In this document: positions 3,802 to 52,993 of the stretch, one piece after another
Position numbering within the stretch: position 1 is the first letter of the stretch
How the letters are laid out: each line of letters starts with the position of its first letter
Assembly (NCBI GenBank): GCA_007119965.1
Contig: SKOR01000034.1
Coordinates: forward strand, 1 to 64,000
Source: Syntrophomonadaceae bacterium
GTDB lineage: Bacteria; Bacillota; Dethiobacteria; DTU022
Direction of reading: 5' to 3'
Length of the DNA: 64,000 nt
The notes under the pieces: generated by a model
The model's input: the letters and a program-made list of their open reading frames with translations, nothing else
Told to the model about the DNA's origin: nothing
The model's database searches: none
Translations under genes and position numbers: made by a program

Positions 3802-3971
3802 GATCGGTATACGGCAATAAGATAAAGCGGGGCGCACCAGGTGGAAAACGACTGAATAATAAAAAACTGCAGATCAACAGCCTGCAAATGGGATAATTCT
3901 CATAAATCAGGGCAAAAGAACGGGGGCTTGAACCGGGGCCGGATAAGTGGTATGATCTTTATTAGAGAGTA

Positions 3972-4066
3972 TGGATAAGGGGAGCTGGGTAGACCCGGCT
4001 GAGAAAGGACTGGACGCGTTCTGACCCTTAAACCTGATCTGGGTAATGCCAGCGGAGGGATATCAA
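3972..4066 (+). promoter_or_regulatory. TPP (THI-box) riboswitch
   Basis: Core GGGGAGCTGGGTAGACCCGGCTGAGAAAGG ... GACCCTTAAACCTGATCTGGGTAATGCCAGCGGAGGGA, directly upstream of thiamine transport genes. Confidence 0.95.
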
Positions 4067-4082
4067 CAGCAGTGCGTACTAG

Positions 4083-5182: not shown

Positions 5183-6181
5183 ATGTCTGAAAAGCTTAAA
5201 TTAAAAGGTGCTGTGTTGTTTTTCTCCATTCTGTCAATCATTTTTATGACAGTAATGGTAACAGGATGCGCTGCCGAAGACCCGGCTGACCCTGACCGGG
5301 TTACGCTGCTCCTGGACTGGACGCCCAACACTAACTACAGCGGTTTCTACGCTGCAATAGAAGAAGGCTTTTTTGAGGAAGAAGGCCTGGAAGTTGAAAT
5401 TATCGAAGCCCCCGGCAGCGTAAACCAGATGGTTGCCACAGGCCAGGCTGAATTCGGTATAAGCTATCAGGAAGAAGTCACTTTCGCCCGGCTGAGCGAT
5501 ATACCGGTCGTTTCGATCGCAGCTATAATCCAGCAAAACACTTCCGGTTTCGCCTCCCTGGCGGATCGCGGAATTGAAAGCCCTGCCGATTTTGAGGGTA
5601 AAAGCTACGGCGGATGGGGCTCTCCTGTGGAAGAGGCCACAATTCAGGCCCTGATGGATCACCATGACGCCGATTATGAAAAGGTTGACATCATCACTAC
5701 AGGAGAAGTTGATTCACTGATCGTGATCGAACGGGAAGCAGACTTTGCCTGGATCTATTACGGGTGGACAGGTATCGAGGCGGAACTGAAAGGGATGGAC
5801 CTGAACTTTATCGAACTGCGCGAGGAAGAGCCGGCCCTCGATTATTACACTCCCGTCCTGGTCACCGGTGAAAACCTGATCGCGGATAACCCCGAACTGA
5901 TCAAAAGGTTTATGCGCGCTGCGACGAGGGGTTATCAGCTGGCAATTGAAAACCCGGGCGAGGCTGCCCGCCACCTGCTTTTCCATGCCCCGGAGTTGGA
6001 TGAAGAGCTGGTTATGGCCAGCCAGGAGTGGCTGGCGGATAAATACCGGGCTGAAGCCGAAACGTGGGGTATCCAGGAACGGGAAACCTGGGAAGCATAC
6101 AGTCTCTGGCTCTATGAGAACGGCCTGATCGAAGAAGTGCCCGATCCGGATAACGCATTTACCAATGAATTCTTGAGGTGA
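5183..6181 (+). CDS. ABC transporter substrate-binding lipoprotein, NMT1/THI5-like (ThiY-like)
   Basis: Lipobox VTGC; VTLLLDWTPNTNYSGFYAAIEEGFFEEEGLEVEIIEAPGS typical of HMP/FAMP-binding proteins. Confidence 0.88.
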   Translation: MSEKLKLKGAVLFFSILSIIFMTVMVTGCAAEDPADPDRVTLLLDWTPNTNYSGFYAAIEEGFFEEEGLEVEIIEAPGSVNQMVATGQAEFGISYQEEVTFARLSDIPVVSIAAIIQQNTSGFASLADRGIESPADFEGKSYGGWGSPVEEATIQALMDHHDADYEKVDIITTGEVDSLIVIEREADFAWIYYGWTGIEAELKGMDLNFIELREEEPALDYYTPVLVTGENLIADNPELIKRFMRAATRGYQLAIENPGEAARHLLFHAPELDEELVMASQEWLADKYRAEAETWGIQERETWEAYSLWLYENGLIEEVPDPDNAFTNEFLR

Positions 6182-6939
6182 GACTGATCGATAAACTGCT
6201 CTTAGAGGGAATCAGTTCTACTTACTTTTCCGGGGAACAACGGCTACCCGTGCTGGACAATATTTCACTGCATGTTCAAGCGGGTGAATTTGTTACAGTC
6301 CTTGGACCGAGCGGCTCCGGAAAAAGCACCATCCTGAAAACTGCCGCCGGGCTGCTCAAGCCCGATCGGGGGCGAGTCCTGATCGGAGGGCATGAAACTA
6401 CAGGAACTCCACAGCTGGTCGGTTACATGCCCCAGCAGGATCTTCTGTTCCCCTGGAAAACTTTAAAACAGAATGCTGCCCTGCCGCTTCTGGCAGCAAA
6501 AAGTGGAACCGGAGAAGCCTATGCCCGTGTAGAAGAAATGCTGCCCGTTTTTGGTTTGGAAAGCTTTGCCGATTATTATCCCTTTCAACTTTCGGGAGGC
6601 ATGCGCCAGCGGGCAGCCCTGCTGCGGACCATGCTGATCGAAAGCAACCTGATGCTGCTTGACGAACCCTTTGCCTCCCTCGACGCCCTGACCAGGGAAA
6701 ACATGCAGGACTGGCTTCTTGATATCTGGGGGCGCTTTAAACGCTCCGTTCTCTTTGTTACCCACAGTATTGATGAAGCAATATACCTTTCTGACCGAAT
6801 TTATGTAATCAGCGAACGCCCGGGGAAAAATGCCCTGGAGCAGGATATAGAACTGCCCCGGCCCAGGACAAAATCAATCCTGGCCTCCAGAAATTTTGCT
6901 ACCTATAAGCAGGTTTTCATTAATGCCCTGGCCAGCTGA
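6178..6939 (+). CDS. ABC transporter ATP-binding protein (ThiZ-like)
   Basis: Walker A GPSGSGKST, signature LSGGMRQRAAL, Walker B LMLLDEPFASLD; GTG start overlapping the upstream stop. Confidence 0.88.
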   Translation: MRLIDKLLLEGISSTYFSGEQRLPVLDNISLHVQAGEFVTVLGPSGSGKSTILKTAAGLLKPDRGRVLIGGHETTGTPQLVGYMPQQDLLFPWKTLKQNAALPLLAAKSGTGEAYARVEEMLPVFGLESFADYYPFQLSGGMRQRAALLRTMLIESNLMLLDEPFASLDALTRENMQDWLLDIWGRFKRSVLFVTHSIDEAIYLSDRIYVISERPGKNALEQDIELPRPRTKSILASRNFATYKQVFINALAS

Positions 6940-28219: not shown

Positions 28220-28253
28220 GGACAGAGAAAGCCCTGCGGCTTATGCTCTGTCC
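28220..28253 (-). terminator. Terminator hairpin in the glycine riboswitch expression platform
   Basis: Minus strand GGACAGAG...CTCTGTCC with an inner AAGCC/GGCTT stem, followed by TTTTGT. Confidence 0.7.
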
Positions 28254-28432
28254 TTGATACCTGAGAGATTGCTCCCCTATACTATTAAGAGGCTTTCCCC
28301 GTCGGTGCCCCGCGGATACGGGTACTCTCCAGAGATGCGTCCCCCGATGGTACTGCAGCCTGAGAGTTTCCTCTTCGCCTGCCAGGCGTTGAGTTGCTCC
28401 TTCGGCGTCCTTAATTAAGGATCTCTCCCACA
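28245..28432 (-). promoter_or_regulatory. Tandem glycine riboswitch (gcvT element)
   Basis: Minus strand has two aptamer-like units: GTGGGAGAGATC...GAAACTCTCAGGC...ACGGGGGACG-like and CTCTGGAGAGTACC...AGCAATCTCTCAGGTA. Immediately upstream of gcvT. Confidence 0.92.
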
Positions 28433-28708
28433 GGGTTCATACGCAATATTTACTTTTTCTTATATTTTTCCTTTCTTCACAACACTGCAAATTCCTTCTC
28501 TATGAGAAAAAAAAATCAAAAAAATGGCACGTGACGGGGGTGCGGGGTACCTGTCGCCAGTTTTTCAGCCGATCAACCAAAATAAACACTGTTTTATAAA
28601 GTAAAAAATGATCTATTTACTCTGCCATATTCAGTTGTTGCTGTCTGCCGAAGAAACCTGCCAGCGTTGCGGCACTCCGCGTGCCAGGTCCCCCGCCAAC
28701 CCTGAACG

Positions 28709-41362: not shown

Positions 41363-42766
41363 TTATCCCTCCGACACTTCATCCCGCAATTCCATCAGGA
41401 CCTGCTGCTCGGGATAAAAACGGAAAATAATGAAACTGCCTGCAGCCGCAAGTGAAACTACCAGGGCGCTTAACTGGACACCCAGCGGTCCGGCAATATC
41501 TTTACCAAAAACGGAGAGCAGGTAAGCAAAAACAACCCCTGCTAAAGCGATAGTCAGCTTAAGCGGGATTGCCCGGGCACCGAAGAACATCGCTTCCCGA
41601 CGCTGCCCGGTTTTGTAATAATCGGCCCGGGCCAGGTCTGCTATTGTCGGATTGATCAGGATAGTTAAAACAGCGAGCGGAAACCCGGCCAGGAAAAACA
41701 TGGCCAGGCTGATGTAATAATAAATACCAGTCATATTAAAAGAAAACAGAAAAATTATCAGCCCGCTTACAGAAAGGCTGAGCACCCCCGTGGTAATTAT
41801 CTTTTTCTTACCTGCTTTTTTGGCAGCTATGTTAACCAGCGGAAAGCTGAGTAAGGCTCCCCCGATTGTCAATCCGGCTAAAACGATCATGAAGCGCTCA
41901 TCTCTCTCAAAAAGGACTACAGCGTAATAGATTAAGCCCAGGGTAACCAGGTTCATGGCAAATTGTAAAAACATCTCCCCACCCAGGAATATACGAAAAG
42001 GTTTAATACTAAAGGTATGGCGCAGTGAACTCCACGTTCCTATTTGCGGTGCCACAGCGGGTATACAATGCAGCTTTTCTTTAAAACCGAGTGTTGCCGC
42101 ATAAAGTATAATCACTGCAATTACGGTAAAAATCATAACAGAATTGCGGTAGGCTGCGCGCAGGCCTAATCCTGCATCCTGCAGGCTGCCGGCCAGCAGG
42201 GGGAAAATCATAGCAACCAGGACCATGCCCAGCAGGCCAAAAAATGCAATCATCGTGGAAAGATTAATCCGCAGGGCATTGTTATGCCCCAATTCAGGAA
42301 GCAAAGCCAGGTATGGGTTAACATAGGAGGTAAAGGCCAGGTAAAAAATAGCCATAAATATGGCTAGCCAGAGCCCGTTGAACAGCGATACCCCGGTTAA
42401 ATCAGGGGGTTGAAAAACAAGCAATGTTGAAAGAGCCAGGGGCAGGCCACCGATAATTAAAAACAGTTTGCGGCGCCCCAGGCCGGAGCGGTTGTTGTCA
42501 CTAAGCGAAGCTACGACCGGATCGGCAAAACCGTCGAACACGCGCCCGATGAGCAGGGCGGCGCCCAGTACTGTCACAAGCCCCAGATAAGTGCGATCAG
42601 GAACCAGGTTAGGCAGATTGAACTCTTTCGGAGGCAGGTAGTAGAAAGGCATGTAAAGCAGGATCAACCGCTCGAGCATGGTAAACGCTGCGCTTCCCGA
42701 CGAATAGAGCAGCTGCCCGGCAAGTGGCAGCGAAACTGCACTTGTCTGCTTCATGAATTCCTCCAA
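41363..42766 (-). CDS. MFS/GPH-family transporter (MelB-like)
   Basis: GRVFDGFADPVVASLSDNNRSGLGRRKLFLIIGGLPLALS. Confidence 0.82.
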   Translation of the reverse strand: MEEFMKQTSAVSLPLAGQLLYSSGSAAFTMLERLILLYMPFYYLPPKEFNLPNLVPDRTYLGLVTVLGAALLIGRVFDGFADPVVASLSDNNRSGLGRRKLFLIIGGLPLALSTLLVFQPPDLTGVSLFNGLWLAIFMAIFYLAFTSYVNPYLALLPELGHNNALRINLSTMIAFFGLLGMVLVAMIFPLLAGSLQDAGLGLRAAYRNSVMIFTVIAVIILYAATLGFKEKLHCIPAVAPQIGTWSSLRHTFSIKPFRIFLGGEMFLQFAMNLVTLGLIYYAVVLFERDERFMIVLAGLTIGGALLSFPLVNIAAKKAGKKKIITTGVLSLSVSGLIIFLFSFNMTGIYYYISLAMFFLAGFPLAVLTILINPTIADLARADYYKTGQRREAMFFGARAIPLKLTIALAGVVFAYLLSVFGKDIAGPLGVQLSALVVSLAAAGSFIIFRFYPEQQVLMELRDEVSEG

Positions 42767-43080
42767 CTTTGCTAATTTTAAGAATTAAAAACAGCGACCA
42801 TAACTATAAACAGCTGCCTTCCCTGCTAAACAACAGCATCCGCAGCTTCACCTATCCAATAGGATCGGCCAAAATAACATATTGTTATTTTATCACTTTT
42901 TTAAGCTCAACACTTAACCTGTGCTTAAACCGGGATCAGAATAACCGGCTTAACCAGCCGGCTATTCTGAGCAAGCTTATATTGTTCAGTCAGGACAAAC
43001 CAGGATTCAGGTCTTTTTCACTTTTGCTGCCGGATGGCTGGGCATTAACAAAAGCGGTCAAATATCCCGGATGGTCTATC

Positions 43081-43953
43081 TTACTTTTTACTGTAATCAT
43101 AAAAACCTTTGCCGGTTTTTTGGCCCCATTCCCTCCGGACATACTTCTCTACAACTGTCGGAGAAGGCTTATCTGCAGGGTCTCCTGTTTCCCGGTAACG
43201 CTCTATCATTACATGATAAGTAAGATCAATCCCGGTCAGATCCTGCAGTTTGAAAGGCCCCATTGGATGCCCCAGGGCGTTAACCACTGCACTGTCTATA
43301 TCTTCGGCAGAAGCCACACCCTGATCAAGCAGGTAAAGTGCCTCATTATTGATGGCCGAAAGAATCCGGTTGACCAGGAACCCATAAATTTCTTTTTGCA
43401 GTTCCACCGGCTCTTTGCCCAGCCGGCGGGACAACTCCATCGCCAGACCGGCGGTCTCTTCCGATGTGTGCGGGCCCTTAACAACTTCTACGCACTTCAT
43501 CACCAGGGCAGGGTTGAAAAAGTGCATGTTGCAAACTTTATCGGCGCGGTTGGTCACATCGGCCACCATGGAGCTGACAATAAATGAACTGTTAGTGGCC
43601 AGCACTGCATGCGGCGGGGCAACCTGATCAAGTTCAGCAAAAATCTTCCTTTTAAGCTCGAGTTTTTCCGTAACAGCCTCTATAACAAAATCGGCATCTT
43701 CAGCGGCTTCTTTCAAACCAGTTGTAAATTCAAGGTTTTCCCCGGCCTGCCGGGCCTGCTCCTCGGTTAACTTCCCCTTGGCCACCCGGCCAGGCAGATA
43801 TTTATCGGCGAACTCCCGGGCTTTCCTTAACTGCTCCTCACTGACATCTGAACACTTGACCTCGTAACCCCTGAGAGCTGCCAGTATAGATATCTGGTGG
43901 CCCATATTGCCCGCACCCACTACACAGATCTTCTTGATATCATCAATTTTCAT
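43081..43953 (-). CDS. 3-hydroxyacyl-CoA / 3-hydroxybutyryl-CoA dehydrogenase
   Basis: CVVGAGNMGHQISILAALRGYEVKCSDVS, ATNSSFIVSSMVADVTNRADKVCNMHFFNPALVMKCVEVVKG. Confidence 0.93.
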   Translation of the reverse strand: MKIDDIKKICVVGAGNMGHQISILAALRGYEVKCSDVSEEQLRKAREFADKYLPGRVAKGKLTEEQARQAGENLEFTTGLKEAAEDADFVIEAVTEKLELKRKIFAELDQVAPPHAVLATNSSFIVSSMVADVTNRADKVCNMHFFNPALVMKCVEVVKGPHTSEETAGLAMELSRRLGKEPVELQKEIYGFLVNRILSAINNEALYLLDQGVASAEDIDSAVVNALGHPMGPFKLQDLTGIDLTYHVMIERYRETGDPADKPSPTVVEKYVRREWGQKTGKGFYDYSKK

Positions 43954-44098
43954 AAATATACCTACCTCCTGTTTATTATAATGATCAGGTTAAAGGTAAA
44001 GGCGGCTGTGATTTTATGGTTCGCCATGATCATGGCCCGGCTGAACAATCCGGCAGTGAAACATCTCTGCACTCCAACGCTGCCGGGTAACAGAACGG

Positions 44099-45730
44099 CT
44101 ACGATTTCTTATGCTTATCCTCTTCCTCTTTTACAAGCTCTCGTCGCAAAATCTTTCCTATAGCGCTCCTGGGCAGTTCCCGGCGGAATTCCAACTGACG
44201 GGGCACTTTGTACCTGGCCAGCCTTTCCCTGCAAAATTCAAGGATTTCTTCTTCTGTTGCCTCGGCCCCCTCTTTTACCACTACATATGCCTTAAGGATT
44301 TCTCCATAATAAGCATCGGTGACTCCCGCAGTAACCGCATCAGCTATTTTAGGATGTTCGTAAAGCACTTCATCAACTTCCCGCGGGTATACATTATAGC
44401 CGCTGGTTAAAACCATGTCCTTCTTGCGGTCTACGATATAGAAATAACCGTCTTCGTCCATTTTTGCTATATCACCGGTATACAGCCAGCCATCCCGAAG
44501 GGTTTCAGCTGTTTCTTCAGGACGGTTCCAGTAACCCTTCATTACCTGCGGCCCTTTTATGATCAACTCACCTTCTTCACCGGGAGACAGTTCCCTGGTT
44601 CCCTTTTCCATATCCACGATCTTACAGTCGGTATCCGGGTATGGTATACCTATACTGCCCGCCTTGCGCTTCCCCCTGAAAGGATTAGAGTGAGTAACCG
44701 GCGAGGCTTCCGACAAGCCGAAGCCTTCCAGCAGTTTTGAACCGGTGCGCTGCTCAAAGATTTTCATGGTTTCCAAGGGCATGGGGGCTGCCCCGCTGTT
44801 ACATACTTCGACGGCATCGATGTTATATTTATCAGCGTCGGGGTGGTTGGCTATAGCCGTATAGATGGTCGGTACGGCAGGGAAAAGAGCGGGACGGTAC
44901 TGTTTGATCATTTCCAAAATCAGGTCAACATCAAAACGGGGGATCAAAACCTGTCCGGACGGAAGAGTTAACCCTGTATTCATAGCGCAGGTCATCCCAT
45001 AAGAGTGGAAAAAGGGAAGAATAGCCACACCATAAACTTGATTAACCTGTTCCCCGAAATTTTCATCCAGCCACTCCCTGATCCATTCTTTTATCTGAAA
45101 TACATTGCTTACCAGGTTAAAATGCGTCAGCATAGCTGCCTTTGGTATACCGGTAGTCCCACCGGTGTATTGAAAAACTGCAACATCCTCAATGGGGTTT
45201 ATCTTCTCCACCGACAAACCCGGCGCAGATTTTTCCAGCAGTTCTTCAAAATAGTAGTTGTCCCCCTCCACGTCCATCCACATCAGGCGGGCAACTATTA
45301 CGCTTTCTACTTTCACCCTGTCGCGCACATCCTGAAAAGAATTGAACACTAGGTCTGCCCCGATAAAAACCCTGGCTTCCGAATCATTTAAAATAATTTC
45401 CAATTCCCGCGGCGTATAAAGAGGATTAACCTGAACAACAATTGCACCTAGCTTCATGCAGGCATAGTAAGCATATACATACTGGGGACAGTTGGGGAGC
45501 ATAAGCGCTACCCGGTCACCTTTTTTAACGCCCAGGCCGGCCAGGGCAGAAGCCGTGCGGTCAATCTTTTCATGCATCTCCCTGAAAGATATTTCGCTGC
45601 CCATAAATACCAGCGCTATCAGATCAGGGTAGTCCCCGGTACAACATACCAGGTAATCGTAGAGTGATATCTCCGGGTACTCTAAATTCCGGCGAACCGG
45701 GTAATTCTCTAGCCATAGCTTCTTACTCAC
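44099..45730 (-). CDS. Long-chain acyl-CoA ligase (FadD-like)
   Basis: YTGGTTGIPKAAMLTH, GFGLSEASPVTH, YTGDIAKMDEDGYFYIVDRKKDMVLTSGYNVYPREVDEVL, LPRSAIGKILRREL. Confidence 0.92.
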   Translation of the reverse strand: MSKKLWLENYPVRRNLEYPEISLYDYLVCCTGDYPDLIALVFMGSEISFREMHEKIDRTASALAGLGVKKGDRVALMLPNCPQYVYAYYACMKLGAIVVQVNPLYTPRELEIILNDSEARVFIGADLVFNSFQDVRDRVKVESVIVARLMWMDVEGDNYYFEELLEKSAPGLSVEKINPIEDVAVFQYTGGTTGIPKAAMLTHFNLVSNVFQIKEWIREWLDENFGEQVNQVYGVAILPFFHSYGMTCAMNTGLTLPSGQVLIPRFDVDLILEMIKQYRPALFPAVPTIYTAIANHPDADKYNIDAVEVCNSGAAPMPLETMKIFEQRTGSKLLEGFGLSEASPVTHSNPFRGKRKAGSIGIPYPDTDCKIVDMEKGTRELSPGEEGELIIKGPQVMKGYWNRPEETAETLRDGWLYTGDIAKMDEDGYFYIVDRKKDMVLTSGYNVYPREVDEVLYEHPKIADAVTAGVTDAYYGEILKAYVVVKEGAEATEEEILEFCRERLARYKVPRQLEFRRELPRSAIGKILRRELVKEEEDKHKKS

Positions 45731-47272: not shown

Positions 47273-47524
47273 AGATGTTAATAGGACCTCTCTTGTTCGA
47301 TATTTTTACTCAGGATCTGGATATGTAGCTGCTGCAGTTAAAATACAGGGGCCAATCCAGGCATATCTCTAACCTTTGTCACGATAGATTCTTCCACTTC
47401 GACCCCGGTTTTACCTTCTCAAAACCCGGTCCGGTGACGCCCTCTGATATAAAGTTAATATTTATTCAAGATTGACATAATTGTCTGCAGTGGATATACT
47501 ATACGTGTAATAAACATATTTGTA

Positions 47525-47615
47525 GAGCCCAATTGATAATGGCAAACCTGCCGAAAGGCAGGGGCGCAAAGCCAAGGGTCTAAAGTTTGCAAAAACTATG
47601 ACAGCCTAGCTTCCA
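47525..47615 (+). promoter_or_regulatory. Cyclic-di-GMP-I (GEMM-I) riboswitch aptamer
   Basis: GATAATGGCAAACCTGCC-GAAA-GGCAGGGGCGCAAAGCCAAGGGTCTAAAG...CTATGACAGCC matches the GEMM-I consensus: GCAAACC, GAAA tetraloop, CGCAAAGCCA-GGG-CTAA, TATGA-AGCC. Confidence 0.9.
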
Positions 47616-47631
47616 AAATGGGCTATTTTTG
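47603..47631 (+). terminator. Riboswitch expression-platform terminator
   Basis: AGCCTA-GCTTCCAAAA-TGGGCT followed by ATTTTTG. TGGGCT can alternatively pair with AGCCCA at 47526-47531. Confidence 0.65.
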
Positions 47632-47858: not shown

Positions 47859-49427
47859 ATGAGCACAGGAGTTTACTTGTTTCCGGAAGGGCGAAAACAC
47901 CCTAATGAGTGGAACGATGGCAAAAAAGACAGCCAGGGAACAAAGATGTATGCCGACGGAAGCAAGTATGAAGGTGACTTCAAGGCCGGTCTGAAGCATG
48001 GCCGGGGAACAATGAGTTATGCCGACGGAAGAAAATACATCGGTGAATGGGAAAATGATAAACCCTGCGGTCAGGGCATGATCATATGGCCGGATGGAAG
48101 TAAGTATGAAGGCCAGTATAAAAGCGGGAAAAGAAATGGCCAGGGGACATGGACACAAAAGGATGGCGCAAAATACGTAGGTGGCTGGGAAGACGACCGG
48201 CCCGATGGCCAGGGAATTATCTCATGGCCAGATGGAAGAAAATATGTTGGTGAATGGAAAAATGGCAAGAGAAACGGCCAGGGAATTATGACGTTCCTGG
48301 AAGATGGCAGGTATGTTGGCAAACACCTTGGTGAATGGAAAAATGGCAAGAGAAATGGCCAGGGAACTATGATTTATGCCAATAGCACCAAGTTTTTTTG
48401 TGAGTGGAAAGATGGCCGGAGATGCGCCGAACAGTTGTGGTTGCAATCGGAAAACAGCGAACAGGATAGTGCATTAAGTAGCGACCAGCCAAACGAGCTG
48501 GGAATAGTAACCTGGCAAAACGGCCGAAGGTATGCAGGCGAATGGAAAGACGGCAAGAAACACGGCGAAGGTGTAATGATCTACGCTGATGGGAAAAAAT
48601 ATATCGGCGAATGGAAAGAAGACAGGATCCACGGCCAGGGCATTATGCTCTATGCAAACGGCCTTAAATATATCGGCGAAAGATATGAGGGCAAGAGGCA
48701 CGGCCAGGGCACCATGTTTTATGCAGACGGAAGTATATTTATCGGTGCCTGGAAAGAAGACAAGACAGACGGTCCGGGAACAATGATTTCTGCAGATGGA
48801 AACAAGGTTACCGGTGAATGGAAAGACAATGAGATTCAGCCCCGTTTTGTCGCGGCATCACCCGCGGAAGAGGTACAGAAACCTGTAGAAGCGATAGAGA
48901 AAGCCCTGCAGCCTGAAGTCCCCATCGCATCAACTGAACCGCAGCAGCCCGCCGGAGAAGAAAAAATTACGGTAGACGTAAAGTATATTACCCCGCAAAC
49001 CGGGCTATCCGCCACCGGCACCGGGAAAGAGGAACAGGCAGCTGAAGAAAAGGTCGCTGCCCCGCAGGCCACTGTTTCCGCTGCTTCCGCCGAAAAACAG
49101 GAACAGCCAGCCGAAGAAAGCGGTCATTCGCTGCAAAACCAGGCTGCGGCTGCAGCGCCGGCAGAAACAGGGGATCTTGTTGAAGGTAGGGGCAACCAGG
49201 CCGAAACTGCGAACCTGGCAGATACAAAACAGGATATCGCCACCGAAGAAGATTATTCTCCTGAACTGGAACTAAAACAGGAAATTGCAGCACTCAAGGA
49301 GCGGCTTGATGAAAAGGAGCAAAAACAGGAAAAATCGCCAGTCAAGCTATTATGGATCTGGAATATTGCCCTTACCACCCTGCTGTTAACAGCCGTACTA
49401 TCCATTTGGTTAATTTTCTTGAGATAA
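47859..49427 (+). CDS. MORN-repeat protein with acidic/Ala-Pro-Glu linker, coiled-coil and C-terminal TM anchor
   Basis: About 12 MORN units (e.g. YADGRKYIGEWENDKPCGQG, WPDGRKYVGEWKNGKRNGQG), then a disordered linker and ...LLWIWNIALTTLLLTAVLSIWLIFLR. RBS AAAGGAGG. Confidence 0.93.
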   Translation: MSTGVYLFPEGRKHPNEWNDGKKDSQGTKMYADGSKYEGDFKAGLKHGRGTMSYADGRKYIGEWENDKPCGQGMIIWPDGSKYEGQYKSGKRNGQGTWTQKDGAKYVGGWEDDRPDGQGIISWPDGRKYVGEWKNGKRNGQGIMTFLEDGRYVGKHLGEWKNGKRNGQGTMIYANSTKFFCEWKDGRRCAEQLWLQSENSEQDSALSSDQPNELGIVTWQNGRRYAGEWKDGKKHGEGVMIYADGKKYIGEWKEDRIHGQGIMLYANGLKYIGERYEGKRHGQGTMFYADGSIFIGAWKEDKTDGPGTMISADGNKVTGEWKDNEIQPRFVAASPAEEVQKPVEAIEKALQPEVPIASTEPQQPAGEEKITVDVKYITPQTGLSATGTGKEEQAAEEKVAAPQATVSAASAEKQEQPAEESGHSLQNQAAAAAPAETGDLVEGRGNQAETANLADTKQDIATEEDYSPELELKQEIAALKERLDEKEQKQEKSPVKLLWIWNIALTTLLLTAVLSIWLIFLR

Positions 49428-49624: not shown

Positions 49625-51340
49625 ATGTCAAAGCAGATGTGGCTGAAAAATTACCCGGTCCAGTGGAACCTGGAATACCCGGAGATTTCACTTTACCGTT
49701 ATTTAAAAGAGAAAACAGCTAAATACAGTGACTTAATTGCCATGATTTTCATGGGAAAAGAGATCACCTTTCAAAAGATGCATGAGAATATCGACAGGTT
49801 TGCCGCCGCCCTGATTGACCTCGGAGTTAAAAAAGGTGACCGGGTAGCGTTAATCATGCCCAACTGTCCCGAATACGTCTATACATACTACGCATGTATG
49901 AAGATAGGTGCAGTTGAAGTGCAGATAGATCCTCTCTACATGCCTGCCGAAGTGGAATTTGCCCTCAAAGACTCCGGGGCAAAAATTGTTGTTGTGGCAG
50001 ATGTGGTTATCGAATCTTTCCAGGCGGTGCGGGAGAATATTACCGCAGGACACGTGATTGTTAACAGGCTCAGCGGGGAATTGCAGCGGCACGAAGAGAA
50101 CCTCTGGTTTGACGAACTTCTGGAAAAATACCCTCCTGAATCTCCCGAAGCAGAGATATCTCCAAAAGACGACATCGCCGTTCTCCAGTACACCGGCGGA
50201 ACAACAGGGATCCCGAAAGCAGCGATGCTGACCCACTACAACCTGATCTGCAATGTTGTTCAGAAAAGGGAATGGTTTTCTGATTGGTTCGAAACCAGGT
50301 ATAGCAACGGCATAACCCAACAGTACGGCCTGGCGATCATGCCATTTTTCCATGCAACAGGCATGACTGCAGTCATGAACTTCGGCCTGACCACCCCTTT
50401 TGGCCTGCTCCTGTCATCACATTTCAGTGTAAAAGCAACCCTGGAACTGATCGACCGTTATTGCCCTGTTTTTTTTATGGGGGTTCCCACTATATTCACC
50501 ACTATCGCTAACCATCCTGATGCCGGCAATCACAACCTGAAAGCGGTTGATATATGGCGCACAGGCGGAGCGCCGATGCCCATTGATGTTATAGAACGCT
50601 TAGAAACCCATAACGGCCTCAAAATTATCGAGGGTTACGGTCTTACCGAGGCTTCGCCGACCACGCATGCCAACCCCTTCAGGGGGATCCGCAAGTTTGG
50701 CAGCATCGGCTTGCCATTTCCGGATACCGATTGCCGCATCGTCGACCTGGAAAATGGAACGAAGGATCTGCCGGCAGGCGTGGAAGGCGAATTAATTATC
50801 AAGGGTCCCCAGGTAATGAAAGGTTACTGGAACCGCCCTGATGAAACAGCTGAAACCCTGCGTGACGGTTGGCTCTATACAGGAGATATAGCCAAAATGG
50901 ATGATGGCGGATACTTTTATATCGTCGGCCGGAAGAAAGACATGATTATAACAGGAGGGCTTAACGTCTTCCCGGGCGAAGTAGACGAGGTCTTTTTCCA
51001 CCATCCGAAAGTTGCCGAGGCTTTAAGTACCGGGATTGCCGACGAATACTATGGCGAAGCGATAAAAACCTACGTCGTGCTCAAAGACGGGGAAAGCTCC
51101 ACAGAAGAGGAACTGCTTGATTACTGCGCCCTGAAACTTGCTGTATACAAGCTGCCGCGGGTTATTGAATTCCGCAGCCAGCTTCCCAAGAGCAATGTGG
51201 GCAAACCCCTGAGGCGAGTCCTGGTAGAAGAAAAAAACAATAAGGAGGCGGCCGGAAAGGAAAGTAAAGTTACCAAGTTTCCGGATTGGGAAGAAGACAT
51301 CTTTAACGAGGAAGATTTTATGGATGCCTTTGATCTTTAA
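49625..51340 (+). CDS. Acyl-CoA ligase (FadD-like), paralog of 44099..45730, with acidic C-terminal tail
   Basis: YTGGTTGIPKAAMLTH, GYGLTEASPTTH, YTGDIAKMDDGGYFYIVGRKKDMIITGGLNVFPGEVDEVF, LPKSNVGKPLRRVL; tail FPDWEEDIFNEEDFMDAFDL. Confidence 0.9.
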   Translation: MSKQMWLKNYPVQWNLEYPEISLYRYLKEKTAKYSDLIAMIFMGKEITFQKMHENIDRFAAALIDLGVKKGDRVALIMPNCPEYVYTYYACMKIGAVEVQIDPLYMPAEVEFALKDSGAKIVVVADVVIESFQAVRENITAGHVIVNRLSGELQRHEENLWFDELLEKYPPESPEAEISPKDDIAVLQYTGGTTGIPKAAMLTHYNLICNVVQKREWFSDWFETRYSNGITQQYGLAIMPFFHATGMTAVMNFGLTTPFGLLLSSHFSVKATLELIDRYCPVFFMGVPTIFTTIANHPDAGNHNLKAVDIWRTGGAPMPIDVIERLETHNGLKIIEGYGLTEASPTTHANPFRGIRKFGSIGLPFPDTDCRIVDLENGTKDLPAGVEGELIIKGPQVMKGYWNRPDETAETLRDGWLYTGDIAKMDDGGYFYIVGRKKDMIITGGLNVFPGEVDEVFFHHPKVAEALSTGIADEYYGEAIKTYVVLKDGESSTEEELLDYCALKLAVYKLPRVIEFRSQLPKSNVGKPLRRVLVEEKNNKEAAGKESKVTKFPDWEEDIFNEEDFMDAFDL

Positions 51341-51418: not shown

Positions 51419-51793
51419 ATGAGTACACTGATTGACGGCTTTAACGCAATAATTGAAGACCTCAAAACAGACCTGGGCGAAGGGTTTGTAGCGAGCGACA
51501 TATGGCATAGCAGGGACGCCCATTCTCTGGCCGGATATAATTCGCAGCCCAAAGCGGTTGCCCTTTTCAACGAAGTTACCCGCACCCTTGATAAAACACT
51601 GGCCGGCTCAGAATACCCGGCACTGGGCGATTATTACATGGTTCACCTGGAAAACGGACTCCTGGTGGTAGTATCAAAAACTGGCGACTATCAACTCGGA
51701 ATGCTGGTCGACCTTTCAAAAACAACCATGGGGATTCTGATGAGCGTGGTTTTACCGAAATTATTGAAAAACCTGAAGGAAACTGCCCAATAG
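51419..51793 (+). CDS. Small protein, paralog 1 of 3 in tandem; Roadblock/LC7-like layout predicted
   Basis: DLGEGFVASDIW...LDKTLAGSEYPALGDYYMVHLENGLLVVVSK...VDLSKTTMGILMSVVLPKLLKNL. Confidence 0.7.
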   Translation: MSTLIDGFNAIIEDLKTDLGEGFVASDIWHSRDAHSLAGYNSQPKAVALFNEVTRTLDKTLAGSEYPALGDYYMVHLENGLLVVVSKTGDYQLGMLVDLSKTTMGILMSVVLPKLLKNLKETAQ

Positions 51794-51892
51794 GTTTTTG
51801 CACGGGGCAGAGAAGCTTAAATGCAATGGGCCGCCCGTGAGGCAACTATTAAAAAACAATGTTAAATATCTTTATCTTGAGGATGATTTAAT

Positions 51893-52426
51893 TTGGATAC
51901 AGACCGTGATAAATTACAATCAACATTTGAAAGTCTCAGCAAAGACCTGGGGGATGGTTTTGTCGCTTCCGAAATCTGGGCGATAGAAGACGGCCAACCC
52001 GTGATTAAAAACCACCGGTATAACAACAACCCCCACGTAGCTCCCCTTTTTAATAAAGTGACGCAGATGCTCTACAAAACACTGGAAAAATCTGATTACC
52101 CCGGACTTGGCAATTATTACCTGATAAGCCTTGACAACCAGCATTTGGCCGTTGTGCTCACAATAGGCAAGTTGCAGCAGTTCGTTTTAATCAACCTTCA
52201 AAAAACACCGATCGGTTTATTAATGAGCGTTGCGCTGCCTAATTTGTTGAGTATCCTGGCAAATGATGAAGCTGGTGTTGAAGACCCTGCCGGACACAAG
52301 CCCGAAGATAACTTTCCGGAAACAGGCAAAACAGACAGTCCGGGCCGGAAGTCCAGCCTGCGGGAAATATTCAGTGCCTTAACCGGCGGCATGTATTACC
52401 CGGATAAACCTGATCAACGGGCATGA
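51893..52426 (+). CDS. Small protein, paralog 2 of 3 in tandem (TTG start); C-terminal extension
   Basis: DLGDGFVASEIW...LYKTLEKSDYPGLGNYYLISLDNQHLAVVLTIGKLQQFVLINLQKTPIGLLMSVALPNLLSIL. Confidence 0.7.
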   Translation: MDTDRDKLQSTFESLSKDLGDGFVASEIWAIEDGQPVIKNHRYNNNPHVAPLFNKVTQMLYKTLEKSDYPGLGNYYLISLDNQHLAVVLTIGKLQQFVLINLQKTPIGLLMSVALPNLLSILANDEAGVEDPAGHKPEDNFPETGKTDSPGRKSSLREIFSALTGGMYYPDKPDQRA

Positions 52427-52549
52427 CAGCTGAACAGTTTTTAAAGTAAATTATTCCCGTTACCGGCTTGCAATGTGAGCCCCTGCTGCCAACTAAGAAA
52501 TAAACTGTTCAGGACAGGGGCTTCTGGCGGCAGAAAGGTGGTGATTCAT

Positions 52550-52993
52550 ATGCGTATTACGCTGGAAAATATGAAGAAGGTTATTAACGGTCTCAGGGAA
52601 GACCTCGGGGAAGGTTTTGTCTTCACCGATATATGGAGTACCAGCACTGATAAGTCAGTCGCTTTTCACCACCAGCACCAGTACGGTGCAAAACCCAAGC
52701 ACTTAAAAGTTTTCGGAGAAATCACCCGGATACTGGACAAGACTCTACATGAATCGGATTATCCCGCCCTCGGCGACTTCTACTTAATCAACCTTGCCGA
52801 CAATCACGTTGCCGTAGTTCTCAATTACAGCCCTTCCAGGCCCGGAAAAAGCTCTCTAACACCAAAACGCACTTCTGCCAGTTACCCGGACGCAGATGGA
52901 TACCAACAGTTCGTCCTTGTGGATCTTTCAAAAACTACCATGGGCGTACTGATGAGCATTGCTCTGCCCAATATGCTCGGGAACCTGGAGTAA
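52550..52993 (+). CDS. Small protein, paralog 3 of 3 in tandem; loop insertion
   Basis: DLGEGFVFTDIW...LDKTLHESDYPALGDFYLINLADNHVAVVLNY...YQQFVLVDLSKTTMGVLMSIALPNMLGNL. Confidence 0.72.
   Translation: MRITLENMKKVINGLREDLGEGFVFTDIWSTSTDKSVAFHHQHQYGAKPKHLKVFGEITRILDKTLHESDYPALGDFYLINLADNHVAVVLNYSPSRPGKSSLTPKRTSASYPDADGYQQFVLVDLSKTTMGVLMSIALPNMLGNLE

Follow-up and report, generated by a model that had tools for sequence, protein, structure and literature searches.

A predicted Roadblock-fold protein family in a MORN-ligase operon with a predicted c-di-GMP riboswitch leader in an uncultured Bacillota bacterium

The window analyzed here is a stretch of 64,000 nucleotides from a draft genome of 120 contigs (G000; completeness, 96.6%), whose host is an uncultured Bacillota bacterium that probably uses fatty acids. 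The first-pass annotation had reported three tandem paralogs at positions 51419 to 52993, and this is confirmed: paralogs A, B, and C are adjacent, mutually homologous genes on the plus strand. They are the distal genes of an operon in which the genes of a MORN-repeat protein and then of an acyl-CoA ligase precede them on the same strand. The features of the operon are as follows.

47472-47500, plus strand: sigma-70 type promoter, TTGACA-17-TATACT, with AAGATTGACATAAT common to most orthologous operons
47526-47630, plus strand: extended aptamer closing stem (47526-47531 pairs with 47619-47624), then U5 (47626-47630)
47531-47617, plus strand: c-di-GMP-I riboswitch aptamer (RF01051; 88.9 bits, the gathering threshold being 35), shortly after the promoter
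47859-49427, plus strand: MORN-repeat protein with 11 stretches above threshold; its long linker is variable, and a single transmembrane segment lies at the C terminus
49625-51340, plus strand: long-chain acyl-CoA ligase (AMP-binding enzyme), upstream of A
51278-51337, plus strand: acidic C-terminal tail of the ligase with aromatic residues, FPDWEEDIFNEEDFMDAFDL, found in MORN-operon ligases only
51419-51793, plus strand: paralog A, ATG start, 124 amino acids, core only; predicted Roadblock fold
51893-52426, plus strand: paralog B, TTG start behind GAGG, 177 amino acids; predicted Roadblock fold
52550-52993, plus strand: paralog C, ATG start behind AGGTGG, 147 amino acids; putative Roadblock fold, from homology to A

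All three paralogs have ribosome-binding sites and are separated by spacers of about 100 bases. Pairwise identity to A is 46 to 48%, 39 columns are invariant across the aligned cores, and a search of the genome with A retrieves B (E value of 7e-27) and C (4e-18) far above chance. The three shared motifs quoted in the first-pass annotation are found in A, B, and C as written, and both of the distinguishing features that it described are present, namely, a C-terminal tail on the second paralog and a loop insertion in the third. The tail of B is flexible and carries a short end helix (SSLREIFSA); a helix-like motif at this position is retained in several B-type proteins. The insertion of C is placed between strands 4 and 5, and its length varies within the C lineage: L066 and L056 have a short form, to which L069 and L068 add about 20 residues. 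G000 also has a fourth family copy (67% identity to A), which is located on a different contig, upstream of a xanthine/uracil permease gene. Because changes between orthologues are predominantly synonymous (dN/dS of about 0.05 to 0.12 where computable, with dS near saturation), A, B, and C are real genes.

Pfam and NCBIfam (E ≤ 10), the PDB sequences, PHROGs, and PADLOC gave no match to the family proteins, in agreement with the earlier description of the family as unrecognized. Judged by these searches, the proteins form a family that is new to the sequence databases. An origin in phages, plasmids, or defense systems was rejected, since phage and plasmid sequences, PHROGs, and PADLOC were all searched without a match. 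By profile search, about 46 members exist in 11 of the 43 genomes (5 of 18 genera) of the same family-rank group, and the remaining 55 genomes of the class yielded none; about 400 genomes spread across the phylum gave weak partial matches only (E ≥ 0.01), none of them credible. The named relatives that carry the family are metagenome-assembled genomes labeled Syntrophomonadaceae or Bacillota. An identical 4268-base contig (L044 and L045) occurs in bins labeled Limnochordia and Hyphomicrobiales and is probably misbinned.

In the phylogenetic tree, the C lineage forms one clade (support of 100/100; eight rows from seven genomes in four genera), the B lineage has a support of 98/89 (ten rows), and the remaining sequences are A-like, with further subtypes. 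Since C and B are separate lineages, the trio is not the product of a recent local triplication; on this phylogeny, the A, B, and C subtypes are best described as old orthologous lineages rather than recent copies. The two clades thus lend support to the suggestion, made from the window alone, that the paralogs are specialized rather than redundant.

Paralog A was modeled by AlphaFold2 from 18 natural sequences. The model (pLDDT, 88.9; pTM, 0.81) shows the order H-E-E-H-E-E-E-H, with predicted helices at residues 3 to 22, 44 to 61, and 104 to 123 and predicted strands at residues 23 to 30, 36 to 40, 72 to 76, 81 to 88, and 91 to 98. A Foldseek search of the PDB with this model returned 125 matches at E ≤ 0.001, with TM scores of up to 0.77; the best 50 of these 125 are all Roadblock proteins or Roadblock-like C-terminal domains of Rag GTPases, and MglB, LAMTOR/Ragulator chains, and an Asgard Roadblock protein are among the matches listed. 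The model of B has the same core plus the flexible tail and the short terminal helix, and its Roadblock-type PDB matches resemble those of A, with lower scores. The Roadblock-like secondary structure, assigned by eye in the first-pass annotation, is therefore borne out for A and B by AlphaFold and Foldseek, and a Roadblock fold is strongly supported for them at the level of structure prediction, with C a putative further case by homology to A. A viral structure library gave one match, which was unconvincing (E value of 5e-4; TM of 0.40).

Sequence comparison gave a different picture. The Robl_LC7 profile (PF03259) matched 0 of 18 family members at E ≤ 10, found no genome of the family-rank group above the cutoff, and hit none of 200 genomes from the phylum; plasmids gave a single match. 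An hhalign comparison of the family with MglB yielded a probability of 0.3%, a thin test in that the MglB alignment consisted of two sequences, one of which was checked against PDB entries 1j3w and 3t1r. As sequence kinship to Robl_LC7 is not demonstrable, we call this a Roadblock-fold family and not a member of PF03259. Roadblock domains are dimeric platforms whose dimerization is mediated by the central helix (PMC10933270), and the corresponding helix is well conserved across the family.

The ligase encoded upstream of A contains the AMP-binding (E value of 2e-89) and AMP-binding_C (7e-15) domains and reached no NCBIfam cutoff. It is the most constant neighbor of A. The gene order MORN-ligase-A is present in the window, L061, L064, L071, and L072 and also in L051, where the A copy is broken; an intact family gene thus exists in five of the seven MORN-ligase operons found. 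In the seventh, L137, the order is MORN-ligase-BCCT, the interval from ligase to BCCT lacking a family gene; in L058 and L060, ligase and A occur together without an adjacent MORN gene. The broken A-type gene of L051 (5402-5758) contains an internal stop, and an intact pair of A and C genes is found on a different contig of that genome (L059). MORN repeats are protein-protein modules that bind proteins (PMC7725318). All six MORN proteins that were scored have a single hydrophobic or transmembrane segment at the extreme C terminus, and the L137 protein has a similar C-terminal stretch; a single-repeat MORN profile, at the limit used, did not detect the MORN gene of the window itself.

A comparison of 30 ligases from the same 11 genomes revealed the acidic aromatic tail (e.g., DWEED-IFNEEDFMDAFD) in 7 of 7 MORN-operon ligases versus 0 of 23 others, the seven related operons representing few independent events. 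The tailless ligases include two that adjoin family genes in loci without a MORN gene (L105 and L106). The tail therefore tracks the MORN gene more closely than the Roadblock genes, and the ligase may dock on the MORN protein alone. Its co-occurrence with the MORN gene makes this tail a ready hypothesis for a docking site.

It is strongly supported that the operon leader carries a c-di-GMP-I riboswitch, as predicted from the aptamer match. Such a riboswitch leads all seven MORN-ligase operons (window, L051, L061, L064, L071, L072, and L137), and three more family genes (in L050, L052, and L054) lie behind one. Counts of riboswitches near family genes partly reflect how the loci were selected, whereas the seven of seven for the MORN operons does not. 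In leaders of the window type, a U-tract follows the closing stem without a gap. The closing stem covaries in six related leaders; for instance, its letters differ between the window (AGCCCA/UGGGCU) and L137 (AACCCA/UGGGUU) with pairing kept. It is possible that this stem, together with U5, serves as the terminator of an OFF switch. In L072, L052, and L054, an ordinary terminator hairpin is found downstream instead, and both layouts suggest termination upon c-di-GMP binding. The class I c-di-GMP switches of C. difficile act as OFF switches (PMC6200980).

Three c-di-GMP-I riboswitches exist within 6 kb in L072 (207-9358), where the MORN operon lies between an upstream PilB-type ATPase gene and the genes of a sigma factor and a pilin-like protein, each of the latter two having its own riboswitch. 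Other RNA elements were recorded: a tandem glycine riboswitch (28246-28440, minus strand) and a TPP riboswitch (3968-4077, plus strand) in the window and a match to the Rfam PYLIS_2 family (43.3 bits) at 11742-11841 in L055, a hint of pyrrolysine use in that genome.

c-di-GMP is a second messenger governing bacterial surface life, and the riboswitch links it to a fatty-acid-activating enzyme in a lineage with relatives named Syntrophomonadaceae. Our literature searches found no report linking Roadblock proteins and MglA with c-di-GMP riboswitches, nor any linking MORN proteins and acyl-CoA synthetases with them. The MORN-ligase operon with its predicted c-di-GMP control is the more interesting part of the finding.

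Other family genes have varied neighbors: transporters of the xanthine permease, BCCT, SNF, and CitMHS types, a 3-hydroxyacyl-CoA dehydrogenase, a sensor kinase, and a Cache-type sensor. Because many of them adjoin such unrelated transporters and sensors, the ligase cannot be the sole partner of the family. In L057 (9269-10489), a B-type Roadblock core is fused to an unrecognized domain that looks nucleotidyltransferase-like by eye (GGLGIRH...KRPYKGIDFV), and a near-identical free-standing copy of this domain lies 3 kb away (5589-6347). Near the MORN operon, the minus strand of the window (41363-45730) encodes an MFS_2 transporter, a 3-hydroxyacyl-CoA dehydrogenase, and a second, tailless ligase; in L056 and L066, this transporter and dehydrogenase also occur, downstream of B-type family genes. 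Carnitine catabolism was considered because BCCT and a dehydrogenase occur among the neighbors of family genes; that dehydrogenase scored best as a 3-hydroxybutyryl/3-hydroxyacyl-CoA dehydrogenase and BCCT as a glycine-betaine transporter, both below the curated equivalog or subfamily cutoffs, so this function is not claimed.

We tentatively favor, as an explanation that falls somewhat short of probable, a GTPase-independent Roadblock platform, controlled by c-di-GMP, that helps to keep the acyl-CoA ligase at the membrane. A, B, and C would be lineage-specific Roadblock-fold adaptors that probably pair through the central helix into homo- and heterodimers, in the manner of Roadblock proteins; such dimers would serve as a small platform in the cytoplasm that has no Ras-like GTPase. 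With its C terminus in the membrane, the MORN scaffold would supply the anchor and a protein-protein surface, and, jointly with the dimers, it may retain the ligase on the cytoplasmic side of the membrane, where incoming fatty acids would be activated. The best candidate for a docking peptide is the acidic tail of the ligase, and its binding site would sooner be on the MORN protein than on the Roadblock dimers. The tail of B and the loop of C might recruit different partners. The riboswitch would set transcription of the operon, which is most likely off at high c-di-GMP. A wider version, possible but on the unlikely side, is a Ragulator-like bacterial platform without any GTPase, in which Roadblock dimers and the MORN scaffold would bring enzymes and transporters in general to the membrane and c-di-GMP would time the assembly. 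If a divergent Roadblock-fold family does work without a GTPase, it would reveal what the platform does by itself.

Among the other explanations, it is unlikely, though it survives best, that the paralogs are ligand-sensing subunits that respond to a bound acyl-CoA, solute, or nucleotide by modulating the neighboring enzyme or transporter. The fold belongs within the broad roadblock/longin/profilin group, and varied transporters and a Cache-type sensor beside family members are what one would expect of regulatory subunits; however, the proteins are without a known ligand-binding signature, and the listed structural matches are to dimeric scaffolds rather than to sensors.

Roadblock proteins have been described almost exclusively as partners of GTPases or dynein. 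The paralogs might be orthodox regulators of a small GTPase that escaped detection, the reason being either the draft state of the genome (96.6% complete, 120 contigs) or an unusual kind of GTPase. An MglA-like partner elsewhere in the genome had been envisaged in the first-pass annotation, and most studied bacterial Roadblock proteins are indeed MglA coupled (PMC4316618). Searches of the draft G000 genome with two Pfam models detected no MglA-like GTPase, the Ras-family matches being IF2, Era, and LepA. Across the 11 family-carrying genomes, all drafts, the Roc model found only frames of 563 to 712 amino acids, the size of IF2, which is what the frame in G000 is. The same Ras-like searches gave matches in most control genomes, and no small GTPase was seen among the examined neighbors of family genes. 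A missed GTPase is thus improbable. About equally improbable is the idea that the c-di-GMP switch ties the module to surface life, with the Roadblock proteins aiding polarity or pilus function and the ligase a passenger. The PilB-type ATPase gene and the riboswitch-led sigma factor and pilin-like genes flanking the L072 operon would fit this idea, and MglB acts in Myxococcus polarity and pilus control (PMC9481161), but adjacent pilus genes were found in L072 only, and it is the ligase that most constantly accompanies A. Most doubtful is that the paralogs simply raise the dosage of a single protein and that tail and loop have drifted neutrally: the tandem arrangement and the differing C loop lengths among relatives would suit this, but the three types are separate clades retained across genera, a conserved helix-like motif ends the B tail, and the genes are under purifying selection.

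The favored platform can be set beside several known systems. The Streptomyces conservons, with CvnB, are likewise multicopy bacterial Roadblock loci, but their gene sets include a histidine kinase and a small GTPase (PMC4316618), and no such GTPase was detected here. Orphan MglB homologues are likewise Roadblock proteins without a coupled GTPase gene (328 recognized by sequence in 2014, none then characterized [PMC4316618]); they match MglB by sequence, whereas the A/B/C family does not. MglB itself (Roadblock/LC7, PF03259; partner, MglA) shares with A the predicted fold, the order of elements, and the small single-domain size (Foldseek E value of about 1e-5; TM of about 0.7) but differs in its 11 to 12% identity, in the lack of a profile match, and in that no MglA was detected nearby or elsewhere in this genome. 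The leader has the full aptamer of the c-di-GMP-I (GEMM) class at 88.9 bits, with a closing stem that leads directly to the U-tract rather than to a separate terminator hairpin. LAMTOR/Ragulator, a eukaryotic scaffold of Roadblock heterodimers, has a lipidated LAMTOR1 and works with Rag GTPases, whereas here there are a MORN protein, no Rag GTPases, and heterodimers that are putative. Ragulator chains are nevertheless among the top Foldseek matches, and, if our model is right, the two systems would have in common several Roadblock paralogs combined with a membrane-anchored scaffold subunit.
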